A program made the translations under genes and the position numbers. From Candidatus Nitrospira nitrificans (GTDB lineage Bacteria > Nitrospirota > Nitrospiria > Nitrospirales > Nitrospiraceae), in contig NZ_CZPZ01000014.1 in assembly GCF_001458775.1 (NCBI RefSeq), positions 1 through 64,000 of the forward strand: a stretch of DNA of 64,000 nucleotides. The letters are read 5' to 3'. Positions 16,485 to 35,035 of this stretch are shown one piece after another (the stretch's first letter is position 1; each line of letters starts with the position of its first letter). Under the pieces are notes generated by a model. The model was given only the letters and a program-made list of their open reading frames with translations, was not told where the DNA came from and did not search any database.

Positions 16485-18059
16485 GTGGCAGAGATCACTA
16501 TGTTTCCACATGTGCGGATTGGGGCGGGTCGTACCGTGAGATGGGCCGCCATGGCGTTGGTGGCTCTGTTCTCACTGAGCGGGTGCCTCATCAAACCCCA
16601 TGCGTTGAACAAGGAAGACGTGAAGGCTCGAATGGTGAAAGATTTCCAGGCGATTTCATCGGTTGAAGAGCCGGTCGTGGGGCCGATCAGCCTCTATGAG
16701 GCCGTCGCGCGCGCGTTGAAGTACAACTTGGACGCGAAAGTCAAAACCATCCAAGTGCAGCTGGCGCATCAACAGCTCAATATTGCGCACTATTCCTTGC
16801 TCCCCCAGCTCTCGGCCAATGCCGGGTTTGATGGGCGTAATAACTTCGCCGGTGGTGTCGGACAATCGATCGTCACCGGCCGCCAAGCGGTTGAACCGTT
16901 CACCTCCGCCGAGAAGAACATCGTCTCCGGGAATCTTGCTTTGAGTTGGGACGTGCTGGATTTTGGGTTGTCGTTCGTACGTGCGCAACAGGCCGCCGAC
17001 AACGTGATGATCGCCGAGGAGGAAAAACGGCGGATCGCCGTCCGCCTCGTACAGGAAGTTCGCAGCGCCTACTGGCGAGCCGTGAGCGCGGAACGGGTGC
17101 TGCCGCGGATCCAGTTCTTGAATGAATCGGTCACCAAGGCGTTGACGAGCGCCCAACGCATCGTCGATCAAAAGCTGCAGGCTCCGCTGACTCCGCTCAA
17201 CTATCAACGGGATCTGCTGAATACTCAGCGGGAGGTGCGACGACTGTTTCGTGAATTCAGTACGGCCAAAACACAATTGGCCTCTATGATGGGGTTGCCG
17301 CCGGGAACGCCGTTTGACCTGGTCATACCTCCGCGGGAAACCGTGGTGCCGGTGATCAACTTGGACAGCGAAAAGATGGAAGAACAGGCGCTCATGCTCA
17401 GGCCTGAGCTGCGCGCCATTGATTACAAGAAGCGTATCAATGCCAAGGAGGTCAAGGCCGTCTTCTTGGAGCTGTTCCCCAGTCTCAAAGTTTCATTCGG
17501 TGGGTATTACAACAGCAACAGTTTCCTTTTCTATCAAAATTGGTTGACCTATGCGGCGCAGGTCAGCTGGAATTTACTGTCTGTGTTTCGAACGCCGGCT
17601 AAGCTCAAGGCGATCGAAGCCCACGGACACATGTTGGATGCCCAAAGTATGGCGTTGAGCTTGTCCATTCTGACGGAGGTGCACGTCGGCGCGGCGCAGT
17701 TCGTCCACGCCAAAGAGGAATATCAGGATGCGCGGAATTATCAGCGAACACAGGCGGCGATCGTCGAGCACACAAAGAATATGTGGATCACGCAAAGGAC
17801 AAACGATCTCACGTTGATCCGAGAGCAAGTCAATGATGTGGCCGCCGATGTGCGATTGGACGCCGCGCGATCGGGATTGGAAACAGCGTACGCCACTTTG
17901 ATGGCGTCGCTCGGAGAGGAGGCCGTTCCAGCGGCGCCAGGCGAACAAAGCCTGGCTCAACTCGCCGATTCGATCAGACAATATTGGGAACCCAGTGGGT
18001 TTACGATGTCGGAGGAGGAAAGGAGCTCGGCCGGTCATGCGATACCAGTGGCGCAATAG
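16485..18059 (+). CDS. TolC-family outer-membrane channel lipoprotein
   Basis: A 524-residue outer-membrane efflux channel. A lipoprotein signal (MALVALFSLSGC) near residues 22-34 suggests lipidation, as in NodT-type channels. Two long helical hairpin repeats follow, e.g. SLYEAVARALKYNLDAKVK and SAYWRAVSAERVLPRIQFL, then LRPELRAIDYKKRINAKE and WNLLSVFRTPAKLKAIEA. The start is a GTG at 16485; an in-frame ATG at 16500 is an equal alternative. It overlaps the HlyD gene by 23 bases. As the exit duct of an envelope-spanning complex it probably works with the adaptors encoded next. No ABC or RND pump gene accompanies it. Confidence 0.9.
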   Translation: MAEITMFPHVRIGAGRTVRWAAMALVALFSLSGCLIKPHALNKEDVKARMVKDFQAISSVEEPVVGPISLYEAVARALKYNLDAKVKTIQVQLAHQQLNIAHYSLLPQLSANAGFDGRNNFAGGVGQSIVTGRQAVEPFTSAEKNIVSGNLALSWDVLDFGLSFVRAQQAADNVMIAEEEKRRIAVRLVQEVRSAYWRAVSAERVLPRIQFLNESVTKALTSAQRIVDQKLQAPLTPLNYQRDLLNTQREVRRLFREFSTAKTQLASMMGLPPGTPFDLVIPPRETVVPVINLDSEKMEEQALMLRPELRAIDYKKRINAKEVKAVFLELFPSLKVSFGGYYNSNSFLFYQNWLTYAAQVSWNLLSVFRTPAKLKAIEAHGHMLDAQSMALSLSILTEVHVGAAQFVHAKEEYQDARNYQRTQAAIVEHTKNMWITQRTNDLTLIREQVNDVAADVRLDAARSGLETAYATLMASLGEEAVPAAPGEQSLAQLADSIRQYWEPSGFTMSEEERSSAGHAIPVAQ

Positions 18060-18816
18060 CGTGATGGTGCCGGTGTTCCTTGCCGCCGTCGTGGGTGTCC
18101 CTTCGACCGGATGGTCGAAAGGGGACCAAACGGCTCACATCACACGGGTGGATCATGGTGTCGCGCGCGGAATCGTCAAGGCGGCGGCACAGGCGGTGCT
18201 CTATGCTCAAGTCCAGGGACGCGTCAGCATGCTTCCATACAAGGAAGGGCAACGGTTCGAAAAAGGGCACATGCTCGTCCAAATCGACTGTGACAAGTAC
18301 CAGGCTGAGCTGGCGGTCGCCATCGCCGAACACGAGGTCAAAGACAAAGTGTACAAGAACAACGTCGAACTCGGGAAACTCAATGCCGTCAGTAACCTCG
18401 ACCTGGAAACGTCGGAGGCGGAAGCCAAAAAGGCATCGGCTTCGATTCGTGTCGCGGCGGTCAATGTGAAAGGGTGCCAGATTGCGGCTCCATTCGGCGG
18501 CCGTGTCGTCAGTGTGATGGTCAATGAACATGAGAATGTGTTTCCCAACGACAAGTTGATCAGTTTGTTGGATGACAGCAGCCTGGAGATCGAGCTGGTG
18601 CTGCCGTCCTCATCACTGTCCTGGCTCAAGCGGAAATCGCCGTTTACCTTTGTCGTAGATGAGACTCGCCGGAAGTATCCGGCCAGGATCAAAGAAATCG
18701 GGGCGTCGGTGGATGCCGCCAGTCAGACAATCAAGGTGATAGGGGCCTTCGAGAAATTACTGCCGGAGGTCTTGGCCGGGATGAGCGGCACGGCGCAATT
18801 CGTAGAGCAACCGTAA
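18037..18816 (+). CDS. HlyD-family periplasmic adaptor protein
   Basis: A 259-residue membrane-fusion protein. It has a cleavable-looking signal (VMVPVFLAAVVGVPSTGWS), a biotinyl-lipoyl-like half-motif (LYAQVQGRVSMLPYKEGQ) and a short coiled-coil hairpin. The second half-motif is CQIAAPFGGRVVSVMVNEHE, followed by a beta-barrel. Such adaptors bridge inner-membrane machinery to TolC. I chose ATG 18037, downstream of GGAGGAGGAAAGGAG, over an in-frame start at 17995 inside tolC. The next gene follows after three bases. Confidence 0.85.
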   Translation: MRYQWRNSVMVPVFLAAVVGVPSTGWSKGDQTAHITRVDHGVARGIVKAAAQAVLYAQVQGRVSMLPYKEGQRFEKGHMLVQIDCDKYQAELAVAIAEHEVKDKVYKNNVELGKLNAVSNLDLETSEAEAKKASASIRVAAVNVKGCQIAAPFGGRVVSVMVNEHENVFPNDKLISLLDDSSLEIELVLPSSSLSWLKRKSPFTFVVDETRRKYPARIKEIGASVDAASQTIKVIGAFEKLLPEVLAGMSGTAQFVEQP

Positions 18817-18819
18817 ACG

Positions 18820-20187
18820 ATGGCCACGACAGTAGAACCCACCACACAACAGCTTCCAACGCTGATTCACCTGGCGGCCCTCACGCACCTGGAGGGGCAG
18901 ATCCGCGCGGCCAAAACGATCCAAGAGCTGCAGTTTCTCTCCGTCAACGAAACCAGACGGTTGATTCCGTATGAGCAGGCCTTTCTCCTCAGTAACCTGA
19001 GTCGGGGGGACGAGGCGTATCGTGTGTTGAATGCGTCGAGCGTCGCCGTCGTGGATCGCGATGCCCCAATGATCGTGTGGCTCGAACAGGCGGTGCAGGC
19101 GCTTCGTCGTGCCGGCGCTCCGAGCGAGCAGCCGATGGTCGTCACGGAAGAGCTGCTGCCTGAATCGCTTCGCGGTGGCTGGCGGGAATTTGTGAAGGGG
19201 CAGGTCTTTTGGTGTCCCTTACAACATCCGGACGAAACGCTCCTGGGAGCATGGTGGTTTGAGCGGGACTTTTCATGGCAAGAGAACGATGTGGCGATCG
19301 TCCATCGGTTGGCTGGGAGCTATGCGTATGCCTGGAAGGCCCTGTCGAGGAAGGAACGAAGTTGGTCGAAGAAGATCAAGCGTCCCACCTGGTGGCTGCT
19401 TCCCGTGGCGCTGATTGCGGCCCTCTGTCTCCCGATCCGGATTTCCGCCGTGGCGCCGGTGAAAGTCATGGCGAAAGACCCGGTGGTCGTAAGCGCGCCG
19501 ATCGACGGCGTCATTGCCGACGTGCCTGTGCATCCGAACCAAATGGTGCAAGCAGGGACCACGTTGTTTCGATACGAAGACACCAACCTGCGAAATCAAT
19601 TTCTGGTCGCAGAGAAACAATTGACCGTCGCTCGAGCAGAACGGAGCCAAGCCATCCAAGGGGGGTTCGGCGATCCGCAGCGCAAGGCCGAGGTGCCGCT
19701 GAGAGAAGCGGAGATGGATCTCCGGCAAACGGAGCTGACGTATGCGAAAGAAATGCTCGATCAAGTTGAAGTGAGCGCGCCGAAGGCGGGCCTGCTTCTC
19801 TATTCCGAGAAATCCGATTGGACCGGCCGGCCTGTCACCGTCGGTGAGCGGATCATGGAAATCGCCGATCCGAAGCAGATCGAATTGCGGATTGATCTGC
19901 CGGTGGCCGATGCCATCGTGCTCAAGGACGGAGCCGATGCCTTGATATTTCTCAACGCGCTCGCGTTGGAATCGTTTCCGGCAACGATCGTCCATGCCGG
20001 CTACCATGCGGAAGTGTTGCCGGGCGACATCCTCGCCTACCGCGTCACTGCGCAACTCGCACAGCCGGATCCGCGCATCCGTATCGGCTGGCAAGGCACA
20101 GCCAAGGTATATGGCGAACAAGGACCGCTCGCCTACTTGCTCCTGCGCAGGCCGCTGATGGCGCTTCGACAATGGATAGGCTGGTAG
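18820..20187 (+). CDS. Membrane-anchored HlyD-type adaptor with GAF-like N-terminal domain
   Basis: A 455-residue protein. Residues 1-185 are cytoplasmic and resemble a degenerate GAF-like fold (ELQFLSVNETRRLIPYEQAF, then GAWWFERDFSWQENDVAIVH). A transmembrane helix (WWLLPVALIAALCLPIRI) lies near 190-207. The periplasmic part holds HlyD elements: VVVSAPIDGVIADVPVHPNQ, a helical hairpin, VSAPKAGLLLYSEKSDWTG and a barrel domain. The spacing of three bases on both sides makes it part of one operon with the adaptor and the M50 gene. It probably forms the inner-membrane side of the export complex; a sensory role for the GAF-like part is inference. Confidence 0.8.
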   Translation: MATTVEPTTQQLPTLIHLAALTHLEGQIRAAKTIQELQFLSVNETRRLIPYEQAFLLSNLSRGDEAYRVLNASSVAVVDRDAPMIVWLEQAVQALRRAGAPSEQPMVVTEELLPESLRGGWREFVKGQVFWCPLQHPDETLLGAWWFERDFSWQENDVAIVHRLAGSYAYAWKALSRKERSWSKKIKRPTWWLLPVALIAALCLPIRISAVAPVKVMAKDPVVVSAPIDGVIADVPVHPNQMVQAGTTLFRYEDTNLRNQFLVAEKQLTVARAERSQAIQGGFGDPQRKAEVPLREAEMDLRQTELTYAKEMLDQVEVSAPKAGLLLYSEKSDWTGRPVTVGERIMEIADPKQIELRIDLPVADAIVLKDGADALIFLNALALESFPATIVHAGYHAEVLPGDILAYRVTAQLAQPDPRIRIGWQGTAKVYGEQGPLAYLLLRRPLMALRQWIGW

Positions 20188-20190
20188 GCC

Positions 20191-22332
20191 ATGATGAACC
20201 CGGGATCACCTGACGCCAAATCGCAGGAACACAAGCTTCCCCCGCTTCGCTCGAACCTCCAATTCAATCGCGGAACCCCGACCCCCGACGGCGTGCCGAC
20301 TTGGACGATCGTGGATCCCATTCGCAACCGGTATTTCCAGATCGAGTGGCCGGTTTATCAGATGATTCAGCGATGGAATGCCGGCACGATCGAGAAGCTC
20401 CATGCCGCGATGGCACGTGAGACGACCTGTCGGACGACCGCCGAGGACGTGGAAGACTTAGTGAAGTTCCTGTATACGAACAATTTGACCGAACAATCCG
20501 CCAGCGGCAAGCATACCGACTACCAAACCCAGGCCCAAGCCGGCCAGCATAATTGGCTGATGTGGTTGGTTCACCACTATCTGTTCATCAAGATCCCCCT
20601 GGTCCATCCGCACAATTTCCTCAGCGCTACCTTGCCGATCGTGGCACCGCTGTACACGGCGACGGCCGGCTGGACGTTCGGCGCTATCGGGCTGATTGGG
20701 CTGATCCTCGTCGGCCGCCAATGGGATGCGTTTGTCTCGACGTTTCTCTATTTCTTCAACTGGCACGGCGCGATTCTCTATGGTCTCTCGCTTGGCGTGA
20801 TCAAGGTGGTTCACGAGCTGGGCCATGCCTATACGGCCACGCGATTTGGGTGCCGCGTTCCCACCATGGGCGTAGCCTTCATGGTCATGATGCCGGTCCT
20901 CTACTCCGACGTGTCGGACTCCTATCGCCTCACTTCAAAACGGAAACGCCTGTTGATTGCGGCAGGGGGTGTCATTGCCGAGTTGGGGCTGGCTGCCGTC
21001 GCATTCTTCGCCTGGGGATTTCTGCCTGAAGGCACCGCACGAAGCATCGCGTTCATCGTCGCCACGACCAGCCTGGTGATGAGCCTCGCGGTCAATCTCA
21101 ACCCGCTTATGCGTTTCGACGGCTACTATGTCCTGGCGGATGGGTTAGGGATTCCCAACCTGCAAGACAGAGCCTTTGTGTTTGGACAATGGAAGCTGCG
21201 TACCCTGCTCTTTGACCACCAGAGCGCACCGCCGGAGTCGGTATCGGCTCGCATGCGGCAGACCATGGTGGCCTACGCGTGGGCGATCTGGCTGTACCGT
21301 CTCATTCTGTTTACCGGCATTGCCGTCATGGTGTACCACTACTTTTTTAAAGCGCTCGGCATCATTCTCTTTCTCGTCGAGATTGTGTGGTTCATCGCCA
21401 TGCCGATCGCGCGCGAAATGACGGAGTGGTGGAAAAACCGTACCCTCTATGCCGCATCGGCCCGCACCTGGGGAACAGTCGCTTGCGCGAGTGTGGTGCT
21501 CGTGCTCACACTCGTGCCACTGCGGACGAGCATTTCTATTCCGGCCGTCCTTCACGCCTCGTCCTATGCCACCATCTTTGCGCCGACGCCGGGGCGTCTC
21601 CGACAAGTATTGGTGCACGACGGGCAGGTGGTCAAAGCAGGAGACGCTCTCGTGATCCTGGAGAATCCATCATTGGAGAAGGAAGTCCACCTGGCCGAAA
21701 CCAAAGTCGAGAAATGGGAGTATCGGCTCGGACGCATGGCGGGCTACGGTCAAGATCGTGATCAACGACAGGTCATTGGGGAGTCACTGCGAGCCGTGCT
21801 TGCAGAACTGACAGGGTTGGAAGCGAAACGTGACAACTTGATCTTGAAGGCTCCGATCACGGGGATCGTCCGAGATCGGGCCGATTCACTGACTGTAGGC
21901 CGGTGGATCGACCGGAAACTGCCTGTGGCCTATCTGATCGACGGCACCCATGTCGAGATTGAAGGCCTCGTGCCGGTTGATGAATTGGCCTATGTCGAAG
22001 TCGGGCAACCGGCACGATTCATCCCCTTGGATTTGACCAGGCCATCCATCGAGGCGCGTGTCACAGAGATTGCCGAAGTGGATGAACGTGAGTTTACCCT
22101 GCCGTACCTGGCGTCGATCTATGGCGGCGATGTGCCGGTGCGCAAGGATGACAAGGACCGGCTGCGTCCCGAGATCTCGGTCTATCGTGTGCGGTTGCAG
22201 GTCGATCAGGCAGCCTCGCCTGTCGAGCAAGCCACTGTCGGCCATGTCCAGATCCAGGGCCAGCCATCCAGCGTGGCGCGGAGGGTTTGGGATCAGACGG
22301 TCTCGGTCTTGATCAGGGAAAGCGGGTTCTAG
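20191..22332 (+). CDS. M50 site-2 protease/HlyD fusion with PqqD-like N-terminus
   Basis: A 713-residue inner-membrane protein. Residues 10-95 resemble a PqqD/RRE-type winged fold (YFQIEWPVYQMIQRWNAGTI). The site-2 protease domain follows, with zinc motif HELGH at 208-212 and the third ligand Asp310 in LMRFDGYYVLADG, plus about ten membrane helices. From about residue 460 a HlyD-type domain appears: FAPTPGRLRQVLVHDGQVV, a coiled coil, and ILKAPITGIVRDRADSLTVG. M50 proteases cut substrates within the membrane. Coupling one to an adaptor and TolC, without an ATPase, suggests proteolytic release of exported proteins. The likely substrates are the two anchored repeat proteins encoded next. Confidence 0.85.
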   Translation: MMNPGSPDAKSQEHKLPPLRSNLQFNRGTPTPDGVPTWTIVDPIRNRYFQIEWPVYQMIQRWNAGTIEKLHAAMARETTCRTTAEDVEDLVKFLYTNNLTEQSASGKHTDYQTQAQAGQHNWLMWLVHHYLFIKIPLVHPHNFLSATLPIVAPLYTATAGWTFGAIGLIGLILVGRQWDAFVSTFLYFFNWHGAILYGLSLGVIKVVHELGHAYTATRFGCRVPTMGVAFMVMMPVLYSDVSDSYRLTSKRKRLLIAAGGVIAELGLAAVAFFAWGFLPEGTARSIAFIVATTSLVMSLAVNLNPLMRFDGYYVLADGLGIPNLQDRAFVFGQWKLRTLLFDHQSAPPESVSARMRQTMVAYAWAIWLYRLILFTGIAVMVYHYFFKALGIILFLVEIVWFIAMPIAREMTEWWKNRTLYAASARTWGTVACASVVLVLTLVPLRTSISIPAVLHASSYATIFAPTPGRLRQVLVHDGQVVKAGDALVILENPSLEKEVHLAETKVEKWEYRLGRMAGYGQDRDQRQVIGESLRAVLAELTGLEAKRDNLILKAPITGIVRDRADSLTVGRWIDRKLPVAYLIDGTHVEIEGLVPVDELAYVEVGQPARFIPLDLTRPSIEARVTEIAEVDEREFTLPYLASIYGGDVPVRKDDKDRLRPEISVYRVRLQVDQAASPVEQATVGHVQIQGQPSSVARRVWDQTVSVLIRESGF

Positions 22333-22355
22333 AATACAGACGTGATCGCGCCAGT

Positions 22356-22473
22356 CAGCTAGTTAGTGGAGGTTAAGGCACATTCGTTTCGTCGATACCT
22401 TCTCGCACCGGACAGAAATTTGCTCGGTTTCAAGAGGGTCTCCAGCATCGACCGTCTTGAGCCGATGAAGACC
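22356..22473 (+). promoter_or_regulatory. Duplicated leader upstream of the first repeat-protein gene
   Basis: A 118-base segment, beginning CAGCTAGTTAG and ending TGAGCCGATGAAGACC, closely matches 25924-26039 upstream of the second repeat-protein gene. The end lies 33 bases before the ATG here and 32 bases there. Shared blocks include GCACATT, CCGGACA, GGTTTCAAGAGG/GGTTCAAGAGG and CAGCA. It may be a common promoter or 5' untranslated control element. Confidence 0.6.
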
Positions 22474-22506
22474 TGACAGGCCATCTCAATTCCCAGGTAC
22501 GCCGTC

Positions 22507-25500
22507 ATGCTTTTTCGTAAGAAGCCAAAACCGACCTCAGCGGATATCAAGCCCCAGCCGGCTCGAGAGACGCCCGAGACTCCGAGAACAAAACAATCCC
22601 TGCTTTCACTCGAACCGCGACTCATGTTCGATGCAGCCGCGGCAACCACGGCGGCCGAGGTGAATCAAGAACAAGTCGCGCAGGAGCAAGCCGAGTCGGC
22701 TGTGTCCGCGGAAGGCAGTGGCGAGCCAAACATGGGAGTGAGTGAGTCACAAGCACTGCTTCAAGCCATTATGACCTATAACTCCGGCGAGTCCACGACA
22801 GAAGTGGTCTTCGTCGATCCGACCGTGCCCAATTACCGAGAACTCCTGAACGGGATGAACCCCAACATTGAAGTGATCATGTTCGACGGTGGGCAAGACG
22901 GGGTCGAGCAGATGGCAAGCGCGCTGGCCGGACGCACCGGTATCGACGCCATTCACGTGATATCACATGGTGACGTCGGCGCGCTGCAGCTCGGCACCGG
23001 CACGCTCAACATCGACAGTATGTCGGGACAGTACGTCGACGAACTCGCCACCATCCGACAGGCGCTGTCAGGGCAGGCCGACATCCTCGTCTACGGCTGC
23101 GACTTTGCGGAAGGGGACGTGGGGCAGGCTGCCGTCAACCAGCTTGCGTTGTTAACGGGGGCCGATGTCGCGGCCAGCACTGACGACACGGGGTATGCCG
23201 GATTGGGCGGCGATTGGGACCTGGAGATTCAAACAGGGACCGTCGAAACAGAGGTGGCCATCGACTACCATACTCAGGTTGATTGGGTCGGCCTGCTTGC
23301 CGGTGAAACGCCTCCGACCATCACGAACTTGAGTGGTGACACCCGGGCATACAGCGAAGGGGCGGGGGCGGTGGTCATTGAGAGCGGCAACGCGGTGGTG
23401 GCGGATGTGGATAGCACGAACTTCGACACCGGGACCCTCAGCGTCTCGATTCCGGCCGGGGGCGACCCGGCCGAGGACGTGCTGAGCATTCGGCATCAAG
23501 GGACCGGGGTGGGGCAGATCGGGGTGAGCGGCAGCACCGTGACCTACGGGGGCGTGACCATCGGGACAGTTACGGGGGGCAGCGGCGGCAGCAATCTCGT
23601 CATCACGTTCAACGCCAGCGCCACGCCGACGGCGGTCACGGCGCTGGTGAGGAACATCACCTATCAGAACACCGACACGGCTGCGCCGACCACGGGGGCG
23701 CGCACCGTGCGGTTTGCGCTGACCGATGGCGATGGCGGCGCCAGTCCGACCTATGACACGACGGTGACGGTCACGGCCGTCAACGATGCGCCGACAGATC
23801 TTTCATTGTCGGGCGACACGGTGGCGGAGAATGCCAGTAATGGTACCGTGGTGGGAATCGTCAGCGGGACGGACCCGGACAGCGGGGACGCTAAGACGTA
23901 TAGCTTGACGGATACGGCCGGCGGCCGCTTTGCGATCAACAGTGCGACGGGTGAGATCACGGTGGCCGATGGCAGTTTGTTGAACTACGAAACAGCCATG
24001 AGTCATAGCGTGACGGTGCGGGTGACGGATAGCGGGGGCTTGACCTATGACGAAGCCTTCACGATTAACCTGATAAACGTGAACGAAGCGCCGACGGGGG
24101 CCGATGCGACCGTGACCGTCACGGAGGATGCAGCGCATACGTTCACCAGCGGCAACTTTGGGTTCAGCGACGTGGACGCCGGGGACAGTCTGAGCGCGGT
24201 GCGGATCGACACGCTGCCGGGGGCCGGCATGCTCACGCTCTCGGGGACTTCCGTGACGGCAGGACAGATCATCACGGTGGCCGATCTTACAGCGGGCAAC
24301 TTGGCCTTTACACCATCGGCCGATGCTAATGGGACGGGCTATGCCACCTTCACCTTCTCTGTGCGGGACAGCAACAATGCCTACGATGCCACGCCCAATA
24401 CCCTGACCATCGATGTCACGCCGGTCAACGATGCGCCCATGGTGGCGGTGAACTCCGGAAGCACGGTTGCAGAAGGCGGGACCGATACGATCGGCAGTGG
24501 CGAGTTAACCGTGACGGACGTCGAGCATGCGGCGGCGCAGTTGACCTATTCCATCGGAACGGGTCCGGCGTATGGACGGCTGGAGCTCACAACCGCTCCT
24601 GGAGTTTCGACGAGTACGTTCACCCAAGCCGATATTGCCGCGAATCGTCTGGTCTATGTGCACGACGGATCTGAAACCACCAGCGACAGTTTCACGTTTA
24701 CTGTAAGTGATGGGGCAGGGGGAACACTGGGCGCGACGACTATGACTCTGACGATCACCCCCGTGAATGATACTCCCACCATTACGAGTGGCGGTGGTGC
24801 ATCAACTGCGGCAGTCAATGTGGCGGAGAATGTCAGTGCCGTCACGATTGTGACCGGCGCTGACGTGGATCTGCCGGCGCAGGCCCTCACGTACGACATC
24901 AGTGGTGGGCCGGATCAGGCGTTGTTCACGATCGATGCCGTCACCGGTGCGCTGAGTTTTACCGCGTCTCCCAATTTCGAGGTGGCCACCGATGCGAACG
25001 GCGATAATGTGTATGTTGTGCAGGTACAAGTGATCGATAGCCAAGGGGCCAGCACGACACAGACCATTCAGGTGACGGTGACGGACGTGGCAGAGAGGAC
25101 CCCAACGACTTCGCTTATCCCACCAGTGCTGCTGCCGACAACACCGCCGAGTCAGACTGGTCCAGGGCTGGTTGCTTCAAGTCCATTGAGTCCGAGTCCA
25201 GCCGAACCATCGACAGACGCATTTTCTCCGTCTCCGATATTGCCCGGCTCACGCGTGAGGACAGCGGACTTTCGTCCGCCGAGCCCGGTCCTGCTCGCGA
25301 CCGATTCACAGGCCGACCGCAGTGATTCCCGCCTCTCCGACGACCTAAGAAAGCCGATGAATCCGGCCAAGGACCAGCCCCTCTTTACGGTGCTGCCGGT
25401 TGAGCCGGCTCCGGTACTCGTGCCTGAACCGCCAGAAGGACAGCCGTCCGTGAGCGAGCTCTTACTGGCCAAGCTCGACGAGCTGGCCGTCTCGTTGGAT

Positions 25501-25740
25501 CACACCGTTGGGGTGTCCGAAGAGCGGCATGGGTTGATCACTCGGATTGTGGCGTTAACGGGCACGACATTGTCCGTCGGGTTTATCTCCTGGGCCATCC
25601 GCAATGGGGCCTTACTGGCTGGATTCAAGGCGACCCTGTCACCCGGCGGCACGCTGGCCCGCAGCAGGTCGGTACGATCAGCCGAAGTGAGCATGAACGC
25701 CGGCGTGAAGAAGCCAAGCGCAAGCGGCAGCGTGAAATGA
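22507..25740 (+). CDS. LEPR-motif/DUF4347 cadherin-like repeat protein with C-terminal membrane anchor (1077 aa)
   Basis: Large predicted surface protein. The N-terminus is basic without a Sec-type signal, then the motif SLEPRLMFDAA (LEPR at 35-38). DUF4347 spans about residues 95-262, with ISHG (His154) and YGCDFAEG (Cys198). About 600 residues of cadherin-like and VCBS-like repeats follow, joined by TVTAVNDAPT-type linkers. A CSPG-type repeat (ADIAANRLVYVHDGSET) and a Pro/Ser-rich stretch come next. A hydrophobic helix (IVALTGTTLSVGFISWAIR) lies near 1010-1038 and a basic tail ends the protein. There are no RTX nonapeptides and no sorting Cys. I infer that it is exported by the adjacent TolC/HlyD/M50 system and held by the C-terminal helix. 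Confidence 0.85.
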   Translation: MLFRKKPKPTSADIKPQPARETPETPRTKQSLLSLEPRLMFDAAAATTAAEVNQEQVAQEQAESAVSAEGSGEPNMGVSESQALLQAIMTYNSGESTTEVVFVDPTVPNYRELLNGMNPNIEVIMFDGGQDGVEQMASALAGRTGIDAIHVISHGDVGALQLGTGTLNIDSMSGQYVDELATIRQALSGQADILVYGCDFAEGDVGQAAVNQLALLTGADVAASTDDTGYAGLGGDWDLEIQTGTVETEVAIDYHTQVDWVGLLAGETPPTITNLSGDTRAYSEGAGAVVIESGNAVVADVDSTNFDTGTLSVSIPAGGDPAEDVLSIRHQGTGVGQIGVSGSTVTYGGVTIGTVTGGSGGSNLVITFNASATPTAVTALVRNITYQNTDTAAPTTGARTVRFALTDGDGGASPTYDTTVTVTAVNDAPTDLSLSGDTVAENASNGTVVGIVSGTDPDSGDAKTYSLTDTAGGRFAINSATGEITVADGSLLNYETAMSHSVTVRVTDSGGLTYDEAFTINLINVNEAPTGADATVTVTEDAAHTFTSGNFGFSDVDAGDSLSAVRIDTLPGAGMLTLSGTSVTAGQIITVADLTAGNLAFTPSADANGTGYATFTFSVRDSNNAYDATPNTLTIDVTPVNDAPMVAVNSGSTVAEGGTDTIGSGELTVTDVEHAAAQLTYSIGTGPAYGRLELTTAPGVSTSTFTQADIAANRLVYVHDGSETTSDSFTFTVSDGAGGTLGATTMTLTITPVNDTPTITSGGGASTAAVNVAENVSAVTIVTGADVDLPAQALTYDISGGPDQALFTIDAVTGALSFTASPNFEVATDANGDNVYVVQVQVIDSQGASTTQTIQVTVTDVAERTPTTSLIPPVLLPTTPPSQTGPGLVASSPLSPSPAEPSTDAFSPSPILPGSRVRTADFRPPSPVLLATDSQADRSDSRLSDDLRKPMNPAKDQPLFTVLPVEPAPVLVPEPPEGQPSVSELLLAKLDELAVSLDHTVGVSEERHGLITRIVALTGTTLSVGFISWAIRNGALLAGFKATLSPGGTLARSRSVRSAEVSMNAGVKKPSASGSVK
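23314..23766 (+). repeat. Long coding repeat unit, copy A
   Basis: A module of about 150 codons (YSEGAGAVVIESGNAVVADV to VRFALTDGDGG) recurs at about 29157-29644 and 31881-32368 in the neighbouring gene. The B and C copies are nearly identical at DNA level; this copy has diverged further. Recombination between the copies would change the length of the proteins. Confidence 0.75.
24440..24900 (+). repeat. CSPG-type coding repeat, near-identical to the one at 33660-34110
   Basis: The stretch encoding QLTYSIGTGPAYGRLELTTA and ADIAANRLVYVHDGSET is nearly base-identical to the copy in the 3' part of the second repeat-protein gene. The identity continues through synonymous positions, which indicates recent duplication or gene conversion. 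Confidence 0.75.
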
Positions 25741-25923
25741 GCGCGTTCCACTCCACTCGCTCTGTCATGAAGTAGCCTTCATTGAATCAATAGGCCGACT
25801 CTCCCGGATGGTCGGCGTGCCGGGACCGGTTCGAAATTGGAGGCGGTGTGATGACCACCTCCTGTCTGCTGCCCCTGGAGTTAGCTTTTATAGCCAGGGG
25901 GTGAAAGGAGGCCCAGCTTCTTT
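25741..25923 (+). other. Intergenic DNA with two consecutive hairpins between the repeat-protein genes
   Basis: Hairpin 1 spans 25839-25862 (GGAGG-GGT pairing with ACC-CCTCC). Hairpin 2 pairs CCCCTGG at 25872-25878 with CCAGGGG at 25894-25900. They are followed by GTGAAAGGAGG, which resembles a strong ribosome site. A nine-codon open frame (MKGGPASFS, GTG start near 25901) ends in the TAG inside the second leader. Together this could be a terminator or attenuator; no riboswitch class was recognised. Confidence 0.4.
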
Positions 25924-26039: not shown

Positions 26040-26071
26040 CGAAGCGGTACTTGAGTAGAGACGGCCTACGT

Positions 26072-29000
26072 ATGTTCGGGCGAAACAAACACGCCATGTC
26101 ACAGCAAAAGAAGAAGCCCAAGACGGCTTCCAACGGGTCAGAGGCGCCTCGCCCGAAACTGTCGTTCCTTTCGCTCGAATCTCGTCTCATGTTCGATGCA
26201 GCGGCCTCGGCCACAGCGGCCGAGGTCAATCAAGAACAAGTCGCGCAGGAGCAGGCCGAGTCGGCGGTGTCCGCGGAAGGCGGCCGCGAGCCAACCGCGG
26301 CAGAGGATGAGTCGCAAGAGGTGCTTCAAGCCATCGCCTCCTACAACCCAGGCGAGACCACGATAGAGGTGGTCTTCGTCGATCCGACCGTGCCCAACTA
26401 TCGAGAACTCCTGAGCGGGATGAATCCCGATATGGAAGTGATCATGCTCGACGGCGGGCAAGACGGGGTCGAACAGATGACGGCGGCCTTGTCCGGAAGG
26501 ACCGGCATCGATGCCATTCATGTGATCTCACATGGTGCCGCCGGCACGTTGCAGCTCGGCACGGGCACATTGACCACGGAGTCGATGTCCGGGGAATACG
26601 CCGACGAACTCGCGACGATCCAACAAGCGCTTTCAGAGCAGGCCGACATCCTCATTTATGGCTGCGACTTCGCGGAGGGAGAAGTAGGACAGGCCGCCGT
26701 CAACCGACTCGCGGCGCTCACCGGCGCCGATGTGCAAGCCAGCAACGATTTCACAGGGCACATGTCTCTCGGCGGTGACTGGGATTTTGAGGTTCGGACC
26801 GGCGCGATCGAGGCACGAATTGCGATCGATGTACAGACGCAGGCGAACTGGGTTGGGCTGTTGGCTGCGCCGGTGTTGGATGCCTCAAAAAGTCCCACGT
26901 TGAGTTCCATCGGCGAAGACGCCGGCGCGCCGTCGGGAGCGGTGGGAACGCAAGTGTCTTCTCTCGTCGATTTCGCGAGTCCATCGGGTCAAGTGGACAA
27001 TGTCACCGATGCGGACAGCGGTGCGCAGCTCGGTATTGCAATTACGGGCGCCAATACCAGCAACGGGACATGGTGGTACAGCACGAACAATGGGTCGACC
27101 TGGAATGCCCTTGGATCTGTCAGTGATGCCGGCGCTCGCCTCCTGGCCGCCGACGGCAACACCCGTCTCTATTTCCAAGCCAATGCGAATTACACCGGCA
27201 CCATGAGCGATGCCATTACCCTTCGGGCTTGGGATCGAACGAGCGGAACGAACGGCGGCACCGCCAATCTATCTACGACCTCCACGGCGATTGATCAGTT
27301 CAACACGGTCTCTTATTCCAACAATAACGGAACGGTCAATTGGAGTGGCCCTTGGCAGGAGATCGGTGAAAGCGACGGGACCGGCGCTGGGATGGTCATG
27401 GTGAACAGTTATGCCGGTCTATCGGGGAACTCGTTGCAGATAGAAACGGACTTCCTATCGCGGGGCGCCGGCCGGTCGATCGATCTGAGCACGGCATCGT
27501 CGGCGACTCTGTCATTCGACTATATCCGTCAACATGGTGGCGGAACCAATGGAGTGGTTTCGGTTGAGGTCTATAATGGAAAGACATGGACCACCCTCGA
27601 TACCCTTCGCATCAATGCGACCGACAGCGCGGCGCAGAGTTACAAAGTCGACATCAGCGCCTACGCCAATGCAAACACGCAAATTCGATTTATCGTCACC
27701 GGAAGAGACTCGATGGGTCGGGTGCATGTTGACAATATCCAAGTCGAGTCGACCGGCGTGGGCGGCGGTGCGACCGCTTACAGCAGCGCGAGTGACACGG
27801 CAAGTCTAACCGTCACGGCGGTTAACGACGCTCCGGTGTTAGACAATAGTGGCGTCATGACCTTGACGAGCATCACGGAGGATGCCACCAATAATAACGG
27901 GCAAACAGTCGCTTCGATTATCGCCAGTGCGGGAGGCGATCGCATTACAGATGCCGACGCCGGGGCTTCGGAAGGAATCGCCATTACGTCCCTCACTAGC
28001 GGCAGCGGAACCTGGCAGTACAACACCGGTTCCGGCTGGACGAACATCGGGACCGTGTCCGAATCGTCGGCTCTCTTGCTGCGCGCGACCGATTCGATAC
28101 GGTTCGTCCCCAACGGCGAACGGGCTGACAGCGGGAGCATCAGTTTCCGCGCCTGGGATCGAACGTCCGGCACGGCCGGGAGCAAGGTCGCCACAGGAAC
28201 GACGACGACCGTGACGGACCAATTCAACAGTGCCTCGTTCGGCAACAATAACGGAACGCAGAACTGGACAGGCGCCTGGATCGAAACCGATGCGGGCGGG
28301 GCGGGAGTGGCGTCCGGCAGCATTCAAATTAGCTCCAATCAGTTGCGTTTTGATGCCGATCGCGTGGGCGACAACATTGCGCGAGAGGTCAATCTCAGCG
28401 GCACGACCGGCTCGACCCTGTCATTTTCTTATAATAACACCCTGAGCGGAGCAGACCGGGTCGAAGTGCGAATCTCAAGTAATGGAGGGGCCAATTACAC
28501 GACGCTGACCAACGGCACATTCTCCGGATCGCTCCAGACCGGAAGCGGGTCCGCCAGTTTCGATATTTCGGCCTACGCCTCTCCGAACACGCGCATTCAG
28601 TTTATTGTCACCGGCGTCGGTGGGAACGCTCGGTTCTATGCGGATAATGTGCAGGTGACCTCTACGTCCGTCTCTGCTACCGGCGCGTTCAGCTCCGCCG
28701 CAGATACCGCCTCGATTACGGTCACGGCGGTCAACGACGCGCCGGTACTCACTCCTTTTGGTCCCACGACCACGACGACCGAAGGCGCTCCCACTGTTTC
28801 GGGAAGAGTGAGCGACTTGTTGCTGTCCAGTATGACGGATGTCGATAGCGGTGCCGTGGAGGGGATCGCCCTGTTCGGCCTCGGAGGTGCCGGTGGAACG
28901 CTCGAGTACAGTCTCGACGGCGTGACGTGGTCGAGTGTCGGAAGCGTATCGACAGGCAGTGCCTTGTTGCTCAGGGCCACGGACTATCTTCGCATGACTC

Positions 29001-32000
29001 CCGATACCGACAACGGCGGGACGCTGCAGGTCGATTACCGAGGCTGGGACCAAACGGCTGGAACAGCCGGGACGAAGGTGGATGTCTCGGTGACCGGCGG
29101 AACGACGGCATTCAGCATCGCGAGCGACCGCGCGGTGACCACGATCACGGCGGTCAACGATGCGCCGACCATCACGAGCTTGAGCGGCGACAGTCTGGCG
29201 TATAGCGAAGGCGCGGGGGCGGTGGTCATCGAGCAAGGTGGCAATGCGCTGGTGGCCGATGTGGATTCGACGAACCTCGACACCGGCACGTTGACCGTCT
29301 CCATCCCGTCCGGGGGGGACAGTGCCGAAGACGTGCTGAGCATCCGCAACCAAGGGACCGGGGCGGGGCAGATCGGGGTGAGCGGCAGCACTGTGACCTA
29401 TGGCGGTGTGGCCATCGGGACGTTCACCGGTGGCACTGGGGGGAGCAATCTCATCATCACGCTCAACAGCAGCGCCACGCCGACCGCGGTGACGGCGCTG
29501 GTGAAAAACATCACATACGAAAATACGGATACGGCATCGCCGACGACGGGCGCGCGAACCATACGCTATGTGCTTACCGATGGGGATGGCGGCACCAGTA
29601 CCAACTACGACACGACGGTGACGGTCACGGCCGTCAACGATGCGCCGACCGATCTGAGCCTGTCGGCCAATACCGTAGCCGAAAACTCAGCCAATGGCAC
29701 CGTCGTCGGCACGGTGAGCGGGACGGATGCCGATACCGGCGATACCAAGACCTACTCTTTCACGGACAATGCCGGCGGGCGGTTCGCGATCAACAGTTCA
29801 ACGGGCCAGATTACCGTGGCCGATGGCAGTCTGCTCAACTACGAAGCGGCGACGAGCCATGGCGTCACGGTGCGTGTGACCGACGCCGGTGGCCTGACCT
29901 ACGACGAGACCTTTACGATCGCTGTCACCAATGTCAATGAAGCGCCTGTCGCTGCCGACGACCGTGCAGGTCTCCGATTTGACGGTGTGGATGATTTTGT
30001 GGATATGGGCAGCGGAGCGACCTACGAGGTCACGGATACCGTTACGATGGAGGCCTGGATCAACCGGGAACCTTCGTCACAAGCCACGCAAATAATCATG
30101 AATAAGGAAGGGGAGTACGAGATTGGTTTGGATGTGGATGGGAGTCTGAAATGGGCATTTGCGAATACAAACCCAGGCTGGGCCTGGCATGACACGGGTG
30201 TGGTGATCCCGGTGCATACCTGGACCCATATCGCGGTGACCTATGATCATGGAACTATCACGAGTTATGTGGACGGGGTTGCGGTGGAGATCTTCGCCGG
30301 ATCAGGCACGATCGGCGATGCTCATCCGACCAAAGATACGCTTCGGATTGGTGGTCGCGAGAACAATCCGGCAGACCAGTATTTTTCCGGCCAGATCAGC
30401 GAAGCGCAGGTGTGGAATGTGGCGCGAACCGCCGGAGAGATTGCCGGTGACCGTAACGGCAATCTCTCCGGTACAGAAACCGGATTACTAGGCTATTGGA
30501 AGTTCAATGAGAATTCCGGGACCAATGCCGATAATCTGGCGGGGAACTCAGACGGCACGCTGGGCGGCGGAACCACCGGCCAAACCCCTCAGTGGTCGAC
30601 GTATCGTGTCAGCGAGGACAATACCCTTTCGATCGCAGGGCCAGGAGTTTTGGGGAACGACCACGATGTGGACGGCGACGCGTTATCGGCTGTCATTGTC
30701 ACCGGACCCTCGCATGCCGGCTCGTTCACGCTGAATTCTGACGGCAGCTTCTCATATACGCCGGCCGCGGACTTCTCCGGAACCGATTCCTTTACCTATC
30801 GCGTCAGTGACGGAGCTAATTTCTCCAATATTGCTACCGCCTATATTCAGGTAGATTCGGCGAATGATGCCCCGACGGATCTGAGTCTCTCCGCGAACAC
30901 CGTGGCCGAGAACGCAGCCAACGGGACGGTGGTGGGGACGGTCAGTGGGACGGATGTCGACACGGGTGATACGAAGACCTATTCGTTGACCGACACAGCC
31001 GGCGGGCGGTTTGCGATCAACAGTTCCACCGGCCAGATCACGGTGGCCAACGGTAGCTTGCTCAATTACGAGAATGCGGCCAGCCATAGCGTGACCGTGC
31101 GGGTGACCGACAGCGGTGGGCTGACCTACGACGAGACGTTCACGATTAATTTGGCCGACATGAATGAAGCGCCGACGGGCACCGACGCCGCGATTACCAT
31201 CGCCGAAGATAGCTCCTATACCCTGACCACCGGGAACTTCGGCTTCAGCGATGTGGATGCAGGCGACAGTTTGAGTGCCGTACGCATGGATACGATTCCA
31301 ACCGCCGGCTCCTTGACCCTGTCGGGGGTGGCGGTGACGGCGGGGCAGGTGGTGAGCGTGGTGGACCTCACGGCGGGCAACCTGGTGTTCACGCCCTCCG
31401 CCAACGCGACCGGCGCCGGCTATGCGAATCTGACCTTCTCGGTGCGCGATGCCAACAACGCCTACGATGCGGCTCCCAATACGCTCACGTTCAACGTCAC
31501 GGCGGTCAACGATGCGCCGACTCGCACAGCCGGCACTGTCAGTAATCTCACGGTGTCGGAGGACGCCGGTCTGGCATCTTTAGGCTTGGGAGGGGTGGCC
31601 TACAGTCCGGGTGGAGGTGCCGATGAGAGCGCGCAGATATTGACGTATGCCGTCACAGTAGTTCCCTCGGCCGGTGTCGGCGATGTTTTCTTGGCAGATG
31701 GCACCACGCGGGTGACCGTTGGGTCCTATACGTTGGCGGATATTCAAGGCATGCAGTTCAAGCCGGCGGCGAACGCCAGCGGGGTCACGGCGTTTCAGTT
31801 TAATGTTTATGACTCGGGCGGGACGGCCAACGGCGGGGCCAATACGATCAGCCAGTTTATCCAGATCACCCTGACGGCGGTCAACGATGCGCCGACAATC
31901 ACCAACTTGAGCGGCGATGGTTTGAGCTATAGCGAAGGCGCGGGCGCGGTGGTCATCGAACAAGGCGGCAATGCGCTGGTCGCCGATGTGGATTCGACCA

Positions 32001-35000
32001 ATCTGGACACCGGCACGTTGACGGTCTCTATTCCGGCCGGGGGCGACAGTGCAGAAGATGTGCTGAGCATCCGCAACCAAGGCACCGGGGCGGGCCAGAT
32101 TGGGGTGAGCGGCAGCACTGTGACCTATGGCGGTGTGGCCATCGGGACGTTCACCGGTGGCACTGGGGGGAGCAATCTCATCATCACGCTCAACAGCAGC
32201 GCCACGCCGACGGCGGTGACGGCGTTGGTCAAAAACATCACATACGAGAATACCGACACGGCAGCGCCAACGACGGGCGCCCGGACTGTCCGGTATGTCC
32301 TCACCGATGGAGATGGCGGCACCAGTGCCAACTACGACACCACCGTGACGGTCACGGCGGTCAATGATGCCCCGACCGATCTGAGCCTGTCGGCCAATAC
32401 CGTAGCCGAAAACTCAGCGAACGGCACCGTGGTCGGGACGGTGAGCGGCACCGATGTGGACACCGGCGACACCAAGACCTACTCGTTCACGGACAATGCC
32501 GGCGGGCGCTTTGCGATCAATAGCAGCACGGGCCAGATTACCGTGGCCGATGGCAGCCTGCTGAACTACGAAACGGCGACGAGCCATGGCATCACGGTTC
32601 GCGTCACCGACAGCGGCGGGCTGACCTATGATGAGACCTTTACGATCAATCTCACGAACGTGAATGAAGCCCCGACCGGCGCGGACGCTGCGATTACCAT
32701 TATCGAAGATAGCTCCCATACCCTGACCACCGCGAACTTTGGCTTTAGCGACGTGGATGCGGGGGACAGTTTGAGCGCCGTGCGGATCGATACGCTGCCG
32801 GGCGCCGGGAGCTTGACTCTCTCGGGTGTGGTCGTGACGGCGGGCCAGGTCGTCTCTGTGGCGGATATCACGGCGGGGAACTTGGTCTTCACGCCAGTGG
32901 CGGATGCGACCGGCACCGGCTATGCGAACCTGACCTTCTCGGTACGCGATGCCAGCAACGCCTACGATGCGGTCCCCAATACCCTCACCTTCGACGTCAC
33001 GGCGGTGAATGATGCGCCGATCAACACCGTCCCCGGGGCGCAGACGGTCAATGAAGATACCGCCCTCGCGATCAGCGGCGTGAGCGTCAATGACGTCGAT
33101 GGCAATCTGAGCACTGTGCAACTAGCGGTAGGCAACGGCACGCTGGCTGTGACTCTCTCGGGCGGGGCGACGATCAGCGCGGGGAACAACGGCACGAACA
33201 GCCTGACGTTGAGCGGTAACCAAGCGGACATCAACACGACCTTGGCCACCTTGGTCTATCAAGGTACGCCCAACTTTAACGGCAGTGACACGCTGACCGT
33301 CACGAGCACCGATGCCAACAGCGGCAGCGACGTGGATACCGTCGCGATCACCGTCACGGCGGTGAACGATCCGACCGTGGTGACGGGGGGCACGAGCGGG
33401 ATGGGCGACGAAGACACGACTCTGACGGGGACCCTGACGGCGACCGATGTTGAGGGCTTGAGCGACGGCACGGTGTTTACCGTGACCACGAGCGCGACGA
33501 ACGGGACGGCGAGCATCGATCCGGCGACGGGCCTGTGGAGCTACACCCCGACCGCGGACTTTCACGGGACGGACAACTTCACCGTGACGATTACTGATGA
33601 TGCGGGCACCAGCATCACCCAAGTGATCAGCGTGACCGTGACACCGGTCGATGATGCGCCAATCTTGAGTGTCAACACCAGCAGCACAGTGACTGAAGGC
33701 GGGACCGATACGATTGACAGCAGCGATTTAGTAGTGACGGACATTGAGCAGACCGCCGCGCAGTTGACCTATTCCATCGGAACGGGTCCGGCGTATGGAC
33801 GGCTGGAGCTCACAACCGCTCCTGGTGTTTCTGCCCTCACCTTCACCCAAGCCGATATTGCCGCGAATCGTCTGGTCTATGTGCACGACGGATCTGAAAC
33901 CACCAGCGACAGTTTCACGTTTACTGTAAGTGATGGGGTAGGGGGAACACTGGGCGCCACGACCATGACCCTGACGATCACCCCCGTGAATGATACTCCC
34001 ACCGTTACGAGTGGCGGTGGTGCATCAACTGCGGCGGTCAATGTGGCGGAGAATGTCAGTGCCGTCACGATTGTGACCGGCGCGGATGTGGATCTGCCGG
34101 CGCAGACGTTGACCTACGGCCTCAGCGGAGGTGCGGATCAGGCGCGTTTTACGATCAATGCCGTGACGGGTGCGCTGAGTTTCACCTCACCGCCTGATTT
34201 TGAAGTGGCTACTGATGTCAATGGCGACAACATCTATGTCGTCCAGATTCAAGTAACTGACAGCCAAGGGGCCAGCACCATACAGACTATTCAGGTGACG
34301 GTGATGAATGTGGCAGAAGGAGCTCCGCCCGCACCGCTTCCGCCGCCGGTCCTTCTGCCCACGACTCCGACAGGCTCAACTGGTCCGGGACCTATATCGC
34401 CGAGCCCAGCGGAGTCACCTGTACAGACAACCGAGGTCCCAACCACATTCCCAGTGGGGTCAAGCCCTAGCGCGAGTCCACCAGAATTCACTCCGACTGG
34501 TGCGATGCCGTCGGAAACGGAACGTCTGAATCCGATCAGGTCCGAGGAACCGAGGAAAACGATCGATTTGGCGAAGGATTCGGTCCCCTTCTACTGGATC
34601 GACGAAACCGGTAGGCTGCTCTTGACCGGTACTCCCGTGGAAGCGACTCCGACGCCGGAATTTGAACCAGTCGAGCCATCTCAGTCGGTGAGCGATCTCC
34701 TGTTCTCCAAGCTCGATGACATGACGGCCTCGCTGGAGCAGGCGATGGACCTGTCCCAAGAACAACATGCGATTATAGTGCGGATCGCCGCGTTGACGGG
34801 GACCACCTTGTCGTCCGGGTTCATCGTATGGACGCTTCGTAGCGGGACTCTGTTGGCGAGCTGTCTGGCGACCATGCCGGTCTGGCGGCACTTCGACCCT
34901 CTCCCTGTGTTAGGAGGAAGCGGCAGCGAGCGGGAACGCCGGCGCAAAGAAGCCGAGCGAGATCGGCAAGCAGAAGCCACCGAATTCAAGGGGCTGAAAC

Positions 35001-35035
35001 ATGTGCTCGACTCTCCGCCTGACCCCAAGCCCTAA
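26072..35035 (+). CDS. Giant LEPR-motif/DUF4347 cadherin-like repeat protein with LamG domain and C-terminal anchor (about 2987 aa)
   Basis: I chose ATG 26072 because it places LESRLMFDAA, His154 (SHG) and Cys198 (YGC) at exactly the same residues as in the paralog at 22507. After DUF4347 (98-265) come three jelly-like modules with WDRTSGT/WDQTAGT and two carbohydrate-binding-like inserts. Then follow cadherin-like repeats and a LamG/concanavalin-like domain at about 1298-1500 (LRFDGVDDFVDMG to LGYWKFNENSG). More repeats, a CSPG-type repeat and a Pro-rich linker come next. A transmembrane helix (AALTGTTLSSGFIVWTLRSG) lies near 2902-2930, then VWRHFDPLPVL and a highly charged tail. Adhesin or matrix function is inference from the domains; export probably uses the adjacent complex. 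Confidence 0.85.
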   Translation: MFGRNKHAMSQQKKKPKTASNGSEAPRPKLSFLSLESRLMFDAAASATAAEVNQEQVAQEQAESAVSAEGGREPTAAEDESQEVLQAIASYNPGETTIEVVFVDPTVPNYRELLSGMNPDMEVIMLDGGQDGVEQMTAALSGRTGIDAIHVISHGAAGTLQLGTGTLTTESMSGEYADELATIQQALSEQADILIYGCDFAEGEVGQAAVNRLAALTGADVQASNDFTGHMSLGGDWDFEVRTGAIEARIAIDVQTQANWVGLLAAPVLDASKSPTLSSIGEDAGAPSGAVGTQVSSLVDFASPSGQVDNVTDADSGAQLGIAITGANTSNGTWWYSTNNGSTWNALGSVSDAGARLLAADGNTRLYFQANANYTGTMSDAITLRAWDRTSGTNGGTANLSTTSTAIDQFNTVSYSNNNGTVNWSGPWQEIGESDGTGAGMVMVNSYAGLSGNSLQIETDFLSRGAGRSIDLSTASSATLSFDYIRQHGGGTNGVVSVEVYNGKTWTTLDTLRINATDSAAQSYKVDISAYANANTQIRFIVTGRDSMGRVHVDNIQVESTGVGGGATAYSSASDTASLTVTAVNDAPVLDNSGVMTLTSITEDATNNNGQTVASIIASAGGDRITDADAGASEGIAITSLTSGSGTWQYNTGSGWTNIGTVSESSALLLRATDSIRFVPNGERADSGSISFRAWDRTSGTAGSKVATGTTTTVTDQFNSASFGNNNGTQNWTGAWIETDAGGAGVASGSIQISSNQLRFDADRVGDNIAREVNLSGTTGSTLSFSYNNTLSGADRVEVRISSNGGANYTTLTNGTFSGSLQTGSGSASFDISAYASPNTRIQFIVTGVGGNARFYADNVQVTSTSVSATGAFSSAADTASITVTAVNDAPVLTPFGPTTTTTEGAPTVSGRVSDLLLSSMTDVDSGAVEGIALFGLGGAGGTLEYSLDGVTWSSVGSVSTGSALLLRATDYLRMTPDTDNGGTLQVDYRGWDQTAGTAGTKVDVSVTGGTTAFSIASDRAVTTITAVNDAPTITSLSGDSLAYSEGAGAVVIEQGGNALVADVDSTNLDTGTLTVSIPSGGDSAEDVLSIRNQGTGAGQIGVSGSTVTYGGVAIGTFTGGTGGSNLIITLNSSATPTAVTALVKNITYENTDTASPTTGARTIRYVLTDGDGGTSTNYDTTVTVTAVNDAPTDLSLSANTVAENSANGTVVGTVSGTDADTGDTKTYSFTDNAGGRFAINSSTGQITVADGSLLNYEAATSHGVTVRVTDAGGLTYDETFTIAVTNVNEAPVAADDRAGLRFDGVDDFVDMGSGATYEVTDTVTMEAWINREPSSQATQIIMNKEGEYEIGLDVDGSLKWAFANTNPGWAWHDTGVVIPVHTWTHIAVTYDHGTITSYVDGVAVEIFAGSGTIGDAHPTKDTLRIGGRENNPADQYFSGQISEAQVWNVARTAGEIAGDRNGNLSGTETGLLGYWKFNENSGTNADNLAGNSDGTLGGGTTGQTPQWSTYRVSEDNTLSIAGPGVLGNDHDVDGDALSAVIVTGPSHAGSFTLNSDGSFSYTPAADFSGTDSFTYRVSDGANFSNIATAYIQVDSANDAPTDLSLSANTVAENAANGTVVGTVSGTDVDTGDTKTYSLTDTAGGRFAINSSTGQITVANGSLLNYENAASHSVTVRVTDSGGLTYDETFTINLADMNEAPTGTDAAITIAEDSSYTLTTGNFGFSDVDAGDSLSAVRMDTIPTAGSLTLSGVAVTAGQVVSVVDLTAGNLVFTPSANATGAGYANLTFSVRDANNAYDAAPNTLTFNVTAVNDAPTRTAGTVSNLTVSEDAGLASLGLGGVAYSPGGGADESAQILTYAVTVVPSAGVGDVFLADGTTRVTVGSYTLADIQGMQFKPAANASGVTAFQFNVYDSGGTANGGANTISQFIQITLTAVNDAPTITNLSGDGLSYSEGAGAVVIEQGGNALVADVDSTNLDTGTLTVSIPAGGDSAEDVLSIRNQGTGAGQIGVSGSTVTYGGVAIGTFTGGTGGSNLIITLNSSATPTAVTALVKNITYENTDTAAPTTGARTVRYVLTDGDGGTSANYDTTVTVTAVNDAPTDLSLSANTVAENSANGTVVGTVSGTDVDTGDTKTYSFTDNAGGRFAINSSTGQITVADGSLLNYETATSHGITVRVTDSGGLTYDETFTINLTNVNEAPTGADAAITIIEDSSHTLTTANFGFSDVDAGDSLSAVRIDTLPGAGSLTLSGVVVTAGQVVSVADITAGNLVFTPVADATGTGYANLTFSVRDASNAYDAVPNTLTFDVTAVNDAPINTVPGAQTVNEDTALAISGVSVNDVDGNLSTVQLAVGNGTLAVTLSGGATISAGNNGTNSLTLSGNQADINTTLATLVYQGTPNFNGSDTLTVTSTDANSGSDVDTVAITVTAVNDPTVVTGGTSGMGDEDTTLTGTLTATDVEGLSDGTVFTVTTSATNGTASIDPATGLWSYTPTADFHGTDNFTVTITDDAGTSITQVISVTVTPVDDAPILSVNTSSTVTEGGTDTIDSSDLVVTDIEQTAAQLTYSIGTGPAYGRLELTTAPGVSALTFTQADIAANRLVYVHDGSETTSDSFTFTVSDGVGGTLGATTMTLTITPVNDTPTVTSGGGASTAAVNVAENVSAVTIVTGADVDLPAQTLTYGLSGGADQARFTINAVTGALSFTSPPDFEVATDVNGDNIYVVQIQVTDSQGASTIQTIQVTVMNVAEGAPPAPLPPPVLLPTTPTGSTGPGPISPSPAESPVQTTEVPTTFPVGSSPSASPPEFTPTGAMPSETERLNPIRSEEPRKTIDLAKDSVPFYWIDETGRLLLTGTPVEATPTPEFEPVEPSQSVSDLLFSKLDDMTASLEQAMDLSQEQHAIIVRIAALTGTTLSSGFIVWTLRSGTLLASCLATMPVWRHFDPLPVLGGSGSERERRRKEAERDRQAEATEFKGLKHVLDSPPDPKP
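29157..29644 (+). repeat. Long coding repeat unit, copy B
   Basis: Encodes YSEGAGAVVIEQGGNALVAD through RTIRYVLTDGDGGTS. It is nearly identical at DNA level to copy C at 31881-32368, and both are followed by the same cadherin-like unit (DLSLSANTVAENSANGTVVG). Confidence 0.8.
31881..32368 (+). repeat. Long coding repeat unit, copy C
   Basis: Same module as copy B, 2.7 kb downstream in the same frame. The long identical stretches (for example the block around 32100-32200 against 29375-29475) are possible sites of in-frame recombination. Confidence 0.8.
33660..34110 (+). repeat. CSPG-type coding repeat shared with 24440-24900
   Basis: The segment from QLTYSIGTGPAYGRLELTTA onward matches the paralogous gene nearly base for base over about 300 bases, across two separate genes 9.2 kb apart. 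This suggests gene conversion or recent duplication of the 3' parts. Confidence 0.75.

Follow-up and report, generated by a model that had tools for sequence, protein, structure and literature searches.

The M50-HlyD gene and its neighbours

The window (the whole 64,000-nucleotide stretch of Candidatus Nitrospira nitrificans DNA analysed here) contains a tight row of four genes on the forward strand, with two genes for giant repeat proteins downstream on that strand. The first gene of the row (16485..18059, +) encodes a TolC-family outer membrane channel (Pfam OEP, PF02321, E = 3e-29) and sits in the same operon arrangement in relatives. Overlapping it is the gene for an RND-type periplasmic adaptor (17995..18816, +; NCBIfam RND_mfp, 115.5 bits, over the cutoff). 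The third gene (18820..20187, +) encodes a second adaptor recognized by Pfam as HlyD_3/HlyD_D23, with an N-terminal extension ahead of a single apparent membrane span; relatives belonging to a sister clade, here called clade 2, have a GAF domain at this position. The last gene (20191..22332, +) is real and conserved, and its 713-amino-acid product, M50-HlyD, fuses an RRE/PqqD-like domain to an M50 intramembrane protease and a biotin-lipoyl/HlyD region (Pfam M50, HlyD_3 and Biotin_lipoyl_2).

The closest relatives of M50-HlyD that we found are from other Nitrospira (about 71–85% identity), with copies on proteobacterial plasmids at 33–46%; scans of IMG/VR returned a single relative (locus L079) and otherwise no match. 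The motifs of the M50 domain are intact in the window protein (HELGH, NLNPLMRFDG). HExxH occurs in all 43 homologues, a pattern search finds an NP..(R/K)FDG-type motif in most of them, and we regard the domain as a predicted site-2 protease. The full-length AF2 model (pLDDT 53) is too poor for topology.

Comparison across genomes shows the order TolC, adaptor, HlyD, RRE/M50/HlyD to be kept in Nitrospirota, Azospirillum, Variovorax, Kosakonia, Burkholderia and E. coli plasmids. No ABC transporter ATPase is found among the window genes from 16485 to 35035, the window operon encodes no ATPase gene of its own, and no ABC transporter lies between the operon genes in annotated relatives.

The N-terminal domain

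The original prediction was that residues 10–95 of M50-HlyD are PqqD-like; the span and the sequence quoted for it are correct. The Pfam PqqD model finds no match on the window protein alone, so the claim needed profile and fold evidence, and both now agree with it. In an AF2 model of residues 1–114 (mean pLDDT 80.6, above 90 across most of 21–100), strands at 24–27, 37–42 and 47–52 form a three-stranded sheet that is followed by the three helices of a winged helix (53–60, 67–77 and 84–96), which is the topology of an RRE; we place the domain at residues ~15–103 (20233..20499, +). The best nine Foldseek matches in the PDB are all RRE proteins, comprising leader-bound lasso B1 RREs and a radical enzyme of a sactipeptide pathway that carries an RRE (E from 6e-3 to 7e-2, probability 0.97–1.0), and no E-value falls below 0.001, as expected for so short a domain. 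VIA-align ranks TfuB1 (6jx3, Z = 10.6) and TbiB1 (5v1v, 10.2) ahead of TigE (8.6) and PqqD itself (5sxy, 8.1), with LynD, MccB and further RRE enzymes below PqqD at Z of 7–8, where a small number of winged helices other than RREs also appear. The best structural matches are thus RREs, headed by lasso-peptide B1 proteins that were crystallized with leader.

Searches of the PDB and Pfam that used just the window-clade sequence, or the small alignment of that clade, did not find PqqD, and the PDB matches that they returned were discarded as chance (E of 0.2 and worse). Comparison of profiles does show the relationship: when 32 window-type N-domains were aligned with hhalign to 25 genuine Nitrospirota PF05402 proteins, the score was 29.8 (E = 4.8e-5) against 20.3 for the best of 200 column shuffles, and alignment with the sister clade gave 39.4 (E = 1.7e-6; best shuffle 20.6). 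The sister clade is itself closer to PqqD, with three of the four members scanned over the Pfam PqqD cutoff, a profile that matches the PqqD structure 3g2b (E = 1e-5), and the NCBI label ‘PqqD family protein’ on these remote homologues in several species. The RRE fold of the N-domain is therefore established at the level of prediction. It might still be a decayed winged helix that has no ligand and is kept for folding or oligomerization, as the divergence of the window clade under the Pfam PqqD threshold could suggest. We consider this most improbable, given that the RRE topology is intact and that positions are conserved across phyla (L16, P17, L19, R20, G34, P36, W38, D42, F49, W62, F93, L94 and L99 are invariant in ten sequences).

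PqqD-domain matches also occur in another Nitrospirota family: genome G117 has three of them (C18, C2 and C47) within open frames of 820–850 residues.

Giant proteins and their leader

The first giant protein (22507..25740, +; 1,077 amino acids) consists of a leader, a DUF4347 domain and cadherin-like repeats, and the second (26072..35035, +) of a leader, DUF4347, and LamG and cadherin/Ig-like repeats (domains and repeats by Pfam). For the second, the likely start is the ATG at 26072 rather than the TTG at 26051 given in the open reading frame list. The two are 66% identical over the first 295 residues of the second, and both begin with a basic stretch that leads through S[LF]LSLE[PS]RLMFDAAA.TAAEVNQEQVAQEQAES into DUF4347. 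The motif reads LEPRLMFDA in the first (22609..22635, +) and LESRLMFDA in the second (26174..26200, +). Neither leader has a Sec-like hydrophobic core, the best 12-residue mean hydropathy being 1.2; the non-Sec leader that had been proposed for these neighbours is real. The NCBI model for LEPR-XLL proteins (NF012209) scores 18.5 bits at 22603–22659 in a six-frame search (cutoff 17) and 14.2 in a scan of the whole first protein; the second protein, at 15.4 bits, is just under the cutoff.

The DUF4347 domains of both proteins (22507–25740 and 26072–35035) contain HVISHG and YGCD motifs resembling the His/Cys pattern of caspase-like peptidases, and DUF4347 is possibly a self-cleavage domain.

Co-occurrence of M50-HlyD with the leader

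M50-HlyD is present in 15 of 118 Nitrospirota genomes and an over-cutoff LEPR match in 11, and the two coincide in 10 (P = 3e-10). The match in the lone LEPR genome without M50-HlyD (G073) is a 40-amino-acid frame and was dismissed, as was a sub-cutoff match in G109 (LESRLLLSGET..., L090), which by eye reads like what we take to be peptide release factor 2. Plasmid copies of the operon in alpha-, beta- and gammaproteobacteria likewise adjoin a giant protein with the leader at its N-terminus. Of 12 plasmid records that contain the M50 gene, nine have an over-cutoff leader, against one of 14 control genomes; of the three remaining records, that of Variovorax has a leader by eye, while those of Magnetospirillum and Phyllobacterium do not.

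Two of these loci deserve mention in their own right. In Phyllobacterium (L047, 11812–20118) the M50-HlyD gene adjoins an HrpK-domain protein and no LEPR leader was found, which indicates either a different type of substrate or a decayed locus. The E. coli plasmid pABWA45_1 (L036, 370–20115) has the complete operon together with an Ig-like giant protein of ~4,450 residues, a combination associated with E. coli IncF plasmids. Overall, the M50-HlyD gene occurs in 24 of 5,426 complete E. coli genomes, chiefly on plasmids.

Two leader types and two clades

The leaders fall into two types, LE.R..FDA and LEPR.LLSAD, whose distribution follows the tree of the M50 proteins. All 22 pairs of clade 1, to which the window belongs, have an LE.R.[LMV][FY]D[AG] leader, a count inflated by near-identical Nitrospira rows, and all nine pairs of clade 2 have [LYI]E.R.LL[SANG]. 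The resulting agreement in 31 of 31 pairs does not represent 31 independent events, because the association of leader type with clade comes down to one branching of the tree. More telling than the pair count, as far as these sequences go, are the matching leader types in the five Nitrospirota genomes where both clades are present. In three of these (G050, G094, G105) the clade-2 leader is read next to its own M50 gene and is counted among the pairs, in the other two (G036, G115) clade-2-type leaders are read too, and the clade-1 operons of these genomes have clade-1 leaders. Recognition of the leader by the RRE is thus supported indirectly, by conserved adjacency and by a leader type that follows the M50 clade.

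Clade-2 operons also differ in content, encoding DUF3467, an HlyD adaptor (with GAF in most) and a SecA of ~640–700 residues that has no wing/scaffold domain and retains the preprotein cross-linking domain. This short SecA lies beside the RRE-M50-HlyD gene in 10 of 11 clade-2 loci (L038, 16841–18754; L050, 19892–21847; L040, 12031–14034; L049, 20865–22682; L039, 3887–5410; and L052–L056), the exception being Thalassospira. The TGEGKT motif is present in nine of the 10, the tenth (Rhizobium, L039) having been read over the aligned stretch only. Consistent with an additional copy, SecA is encoded twice in each of the five Nitrospirota genomes that have clade 2 and once in each of the ten others tested. 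Clade 2 may therefore comprise a SecA-driven TolC export system, to judge from gene content. The window system has no dedicated SecA, and its genome has housekeeping SecA only.

These patterns bear on what the RRE reads. One alternative is that it is real but has a different target, either some other partner in the cytoplasm or the membrane core of its own protein, with the LEPR leader being read by the M50 active site, the HlyD parts or SecA. Within clades, partial Mantel tests find that leader divergence tracks the N-domain no better than M50 or HlyD; in clade 1 the partial correlation is 0.14 for the N-domain (p = 0.26) and reaches its maximum, 0.59 given N, for the HlyD part. The tests thus do not single out the N-domain, and clade 2 has a SecA of its own, with the preprotein cross-linking domain, that could serve as reader. 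Even so, we think this alternative rather unlikely: RREs of the same fold bind leaders in RiPP systems, a homologous RRE-M50 peptidase has been proposed to act on leaders (PMC10036551), and the leader is present in the window clade, which does without a dedicated SecA.

A second alternative concerns export itself. M50 proteases are often regulatory, and the operon has no ABC transporter or other obvious motor; the leader could then be a cleavage or retention signal only, with the giant proteins exiting elsewhere and M50-HlyD trimming or sensing them and playing no part in export. The fusion of M50 to HlyD, alongside TolC and two adaptors in intact loci, argues against this, as does the addition of SecA, an export motor, in the sister clade, and we rate it as distinctly unlikely.

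Relation to known systems

In daptide biosynthesis, the RRE-dependent intramembrane peptidase MpaP is proposed to remove the leaders of short peptides (PMC10036551). The window protein matches the corresponding model (NF041824, daptide RRE-M50 protease) over residues 40–404 (E = 1e-47). Like MpaP/DapP, it has an RRE followed by an M50 core with HExxH and NP...FDG, colinear over nearly the whole model (window 20–364 and clade 2 1–375, of 379 positions), and its putative substrates carry a leader. Unlike the daptide protein, it scores 163.1 bits against a cutoff of 300 and has an HlyD domain that the MpaP model lacks; its putative substrates are giant repeat proteins rather than short RiPP precursors, and its operon has TolC, adaptors and giant proteins instead of short precursors, an aminotransferase, a dehydrogenase and a methyltransferase. 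The M50 protease of epipeptide maturation (YydH/LiaK, NF058609) is likewise an M50 domain in a RiPP pathway, but the window match (E = 1e-7) covers the protease core only and is far under the cutoff.

Other parts of the system have different counterparts. PqqD and the lasso B1 RREs (PF05402) share fold, topology (Z = 8.1–10.6) and profile homology with the window domain, but are small stand-alone proteins or are fused to RiPP enzymes, and the window domain is under the Pfam threshold. Type I secretion (HlyB-HlyD-TolC) similarly combines HlyD-type adaptors, TolC and giant repeat substrates, whereas the window operon has no ABC transporter and its conserved signal is N-terminal. The LEPR-XLL proteins (NF012209) are also giants with an N-terminal motif, and the Thalassospira substrate is annotated as LEPR-XLL; the window leader is an FDA variant close to the cutoff (18.5 bits against 17).

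Leader recognition of a very large protein by a PqqD-like domain had been expected to be new, and this holds in part. Since daptide MpaP is the nearest characterized relative, the RRE-M50 fusion was already known (PMC10036551), and the ‘PqqD family protein’ label and NF012209 exist at NCBI; taken one by one, then, the RRE domain, its fusion to M50 and the LEPR motif had all been described before. The apparent novelty lies in having a giant secreted protein as substrate, in the joining of HlyD to the protease and in the export operon. In the open-licence papers that were searched we found no description of the HlyD fusion, of substrates of 1,000–16,000 residues or of two leader types paired with reader clades, nor any mechanism for the LEPR leader, a motif named by NCBI.

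A proposed role in the export of giant proteins

We propose that the operon in the window is dedicated to exporting giant surface proteins. The RRE, on what would be the cytoplasmic N-terminus of M50-HlyD, would bind the non-Sec leader LE[PSQ]RLMFDAA of both DUF4347/cadherin giants and so bring them to the membrane, where the M50 domain would cut the leader off. By analogy with the daptide proposal, on which it is modelled (PMC10036551), this would be the simplest account of leader removal. The giants would then leave through a path formed by the fused HlyD domain, the second HlyD protein, the RND-type adaptor and TolC. We hold this account, from reading and cutting of the leader to export, to be reasonably probable. 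On a broader proposal our confidence is evenly divided. Here, giant surface proteins would be secreted by a system whose reader of a short N-terminal leader is a RiPP-type RRE joined to an intramembrane protease and an HlyD adaptor, and two distinct leader/reader pairs could coexist in a cell, with a dedicated SecA driving one of the two.

Our results suggest that a leader-reading domain on a membrane protease can select giant proteins for secretion. Present in environmental bacteria and on plasmids of E. coli and Citrobacter, the system appears to be a TolC-type route of export that lacks an ABC transporter, and its occurrence on these plasmids makes it testable in laboratory strains. If the proposal is true, the LEPR leader would gain a function, and the recognition of RiPP leaders, until now linked to short peptides, would also serve to choose proteins thousands of residues long for export.
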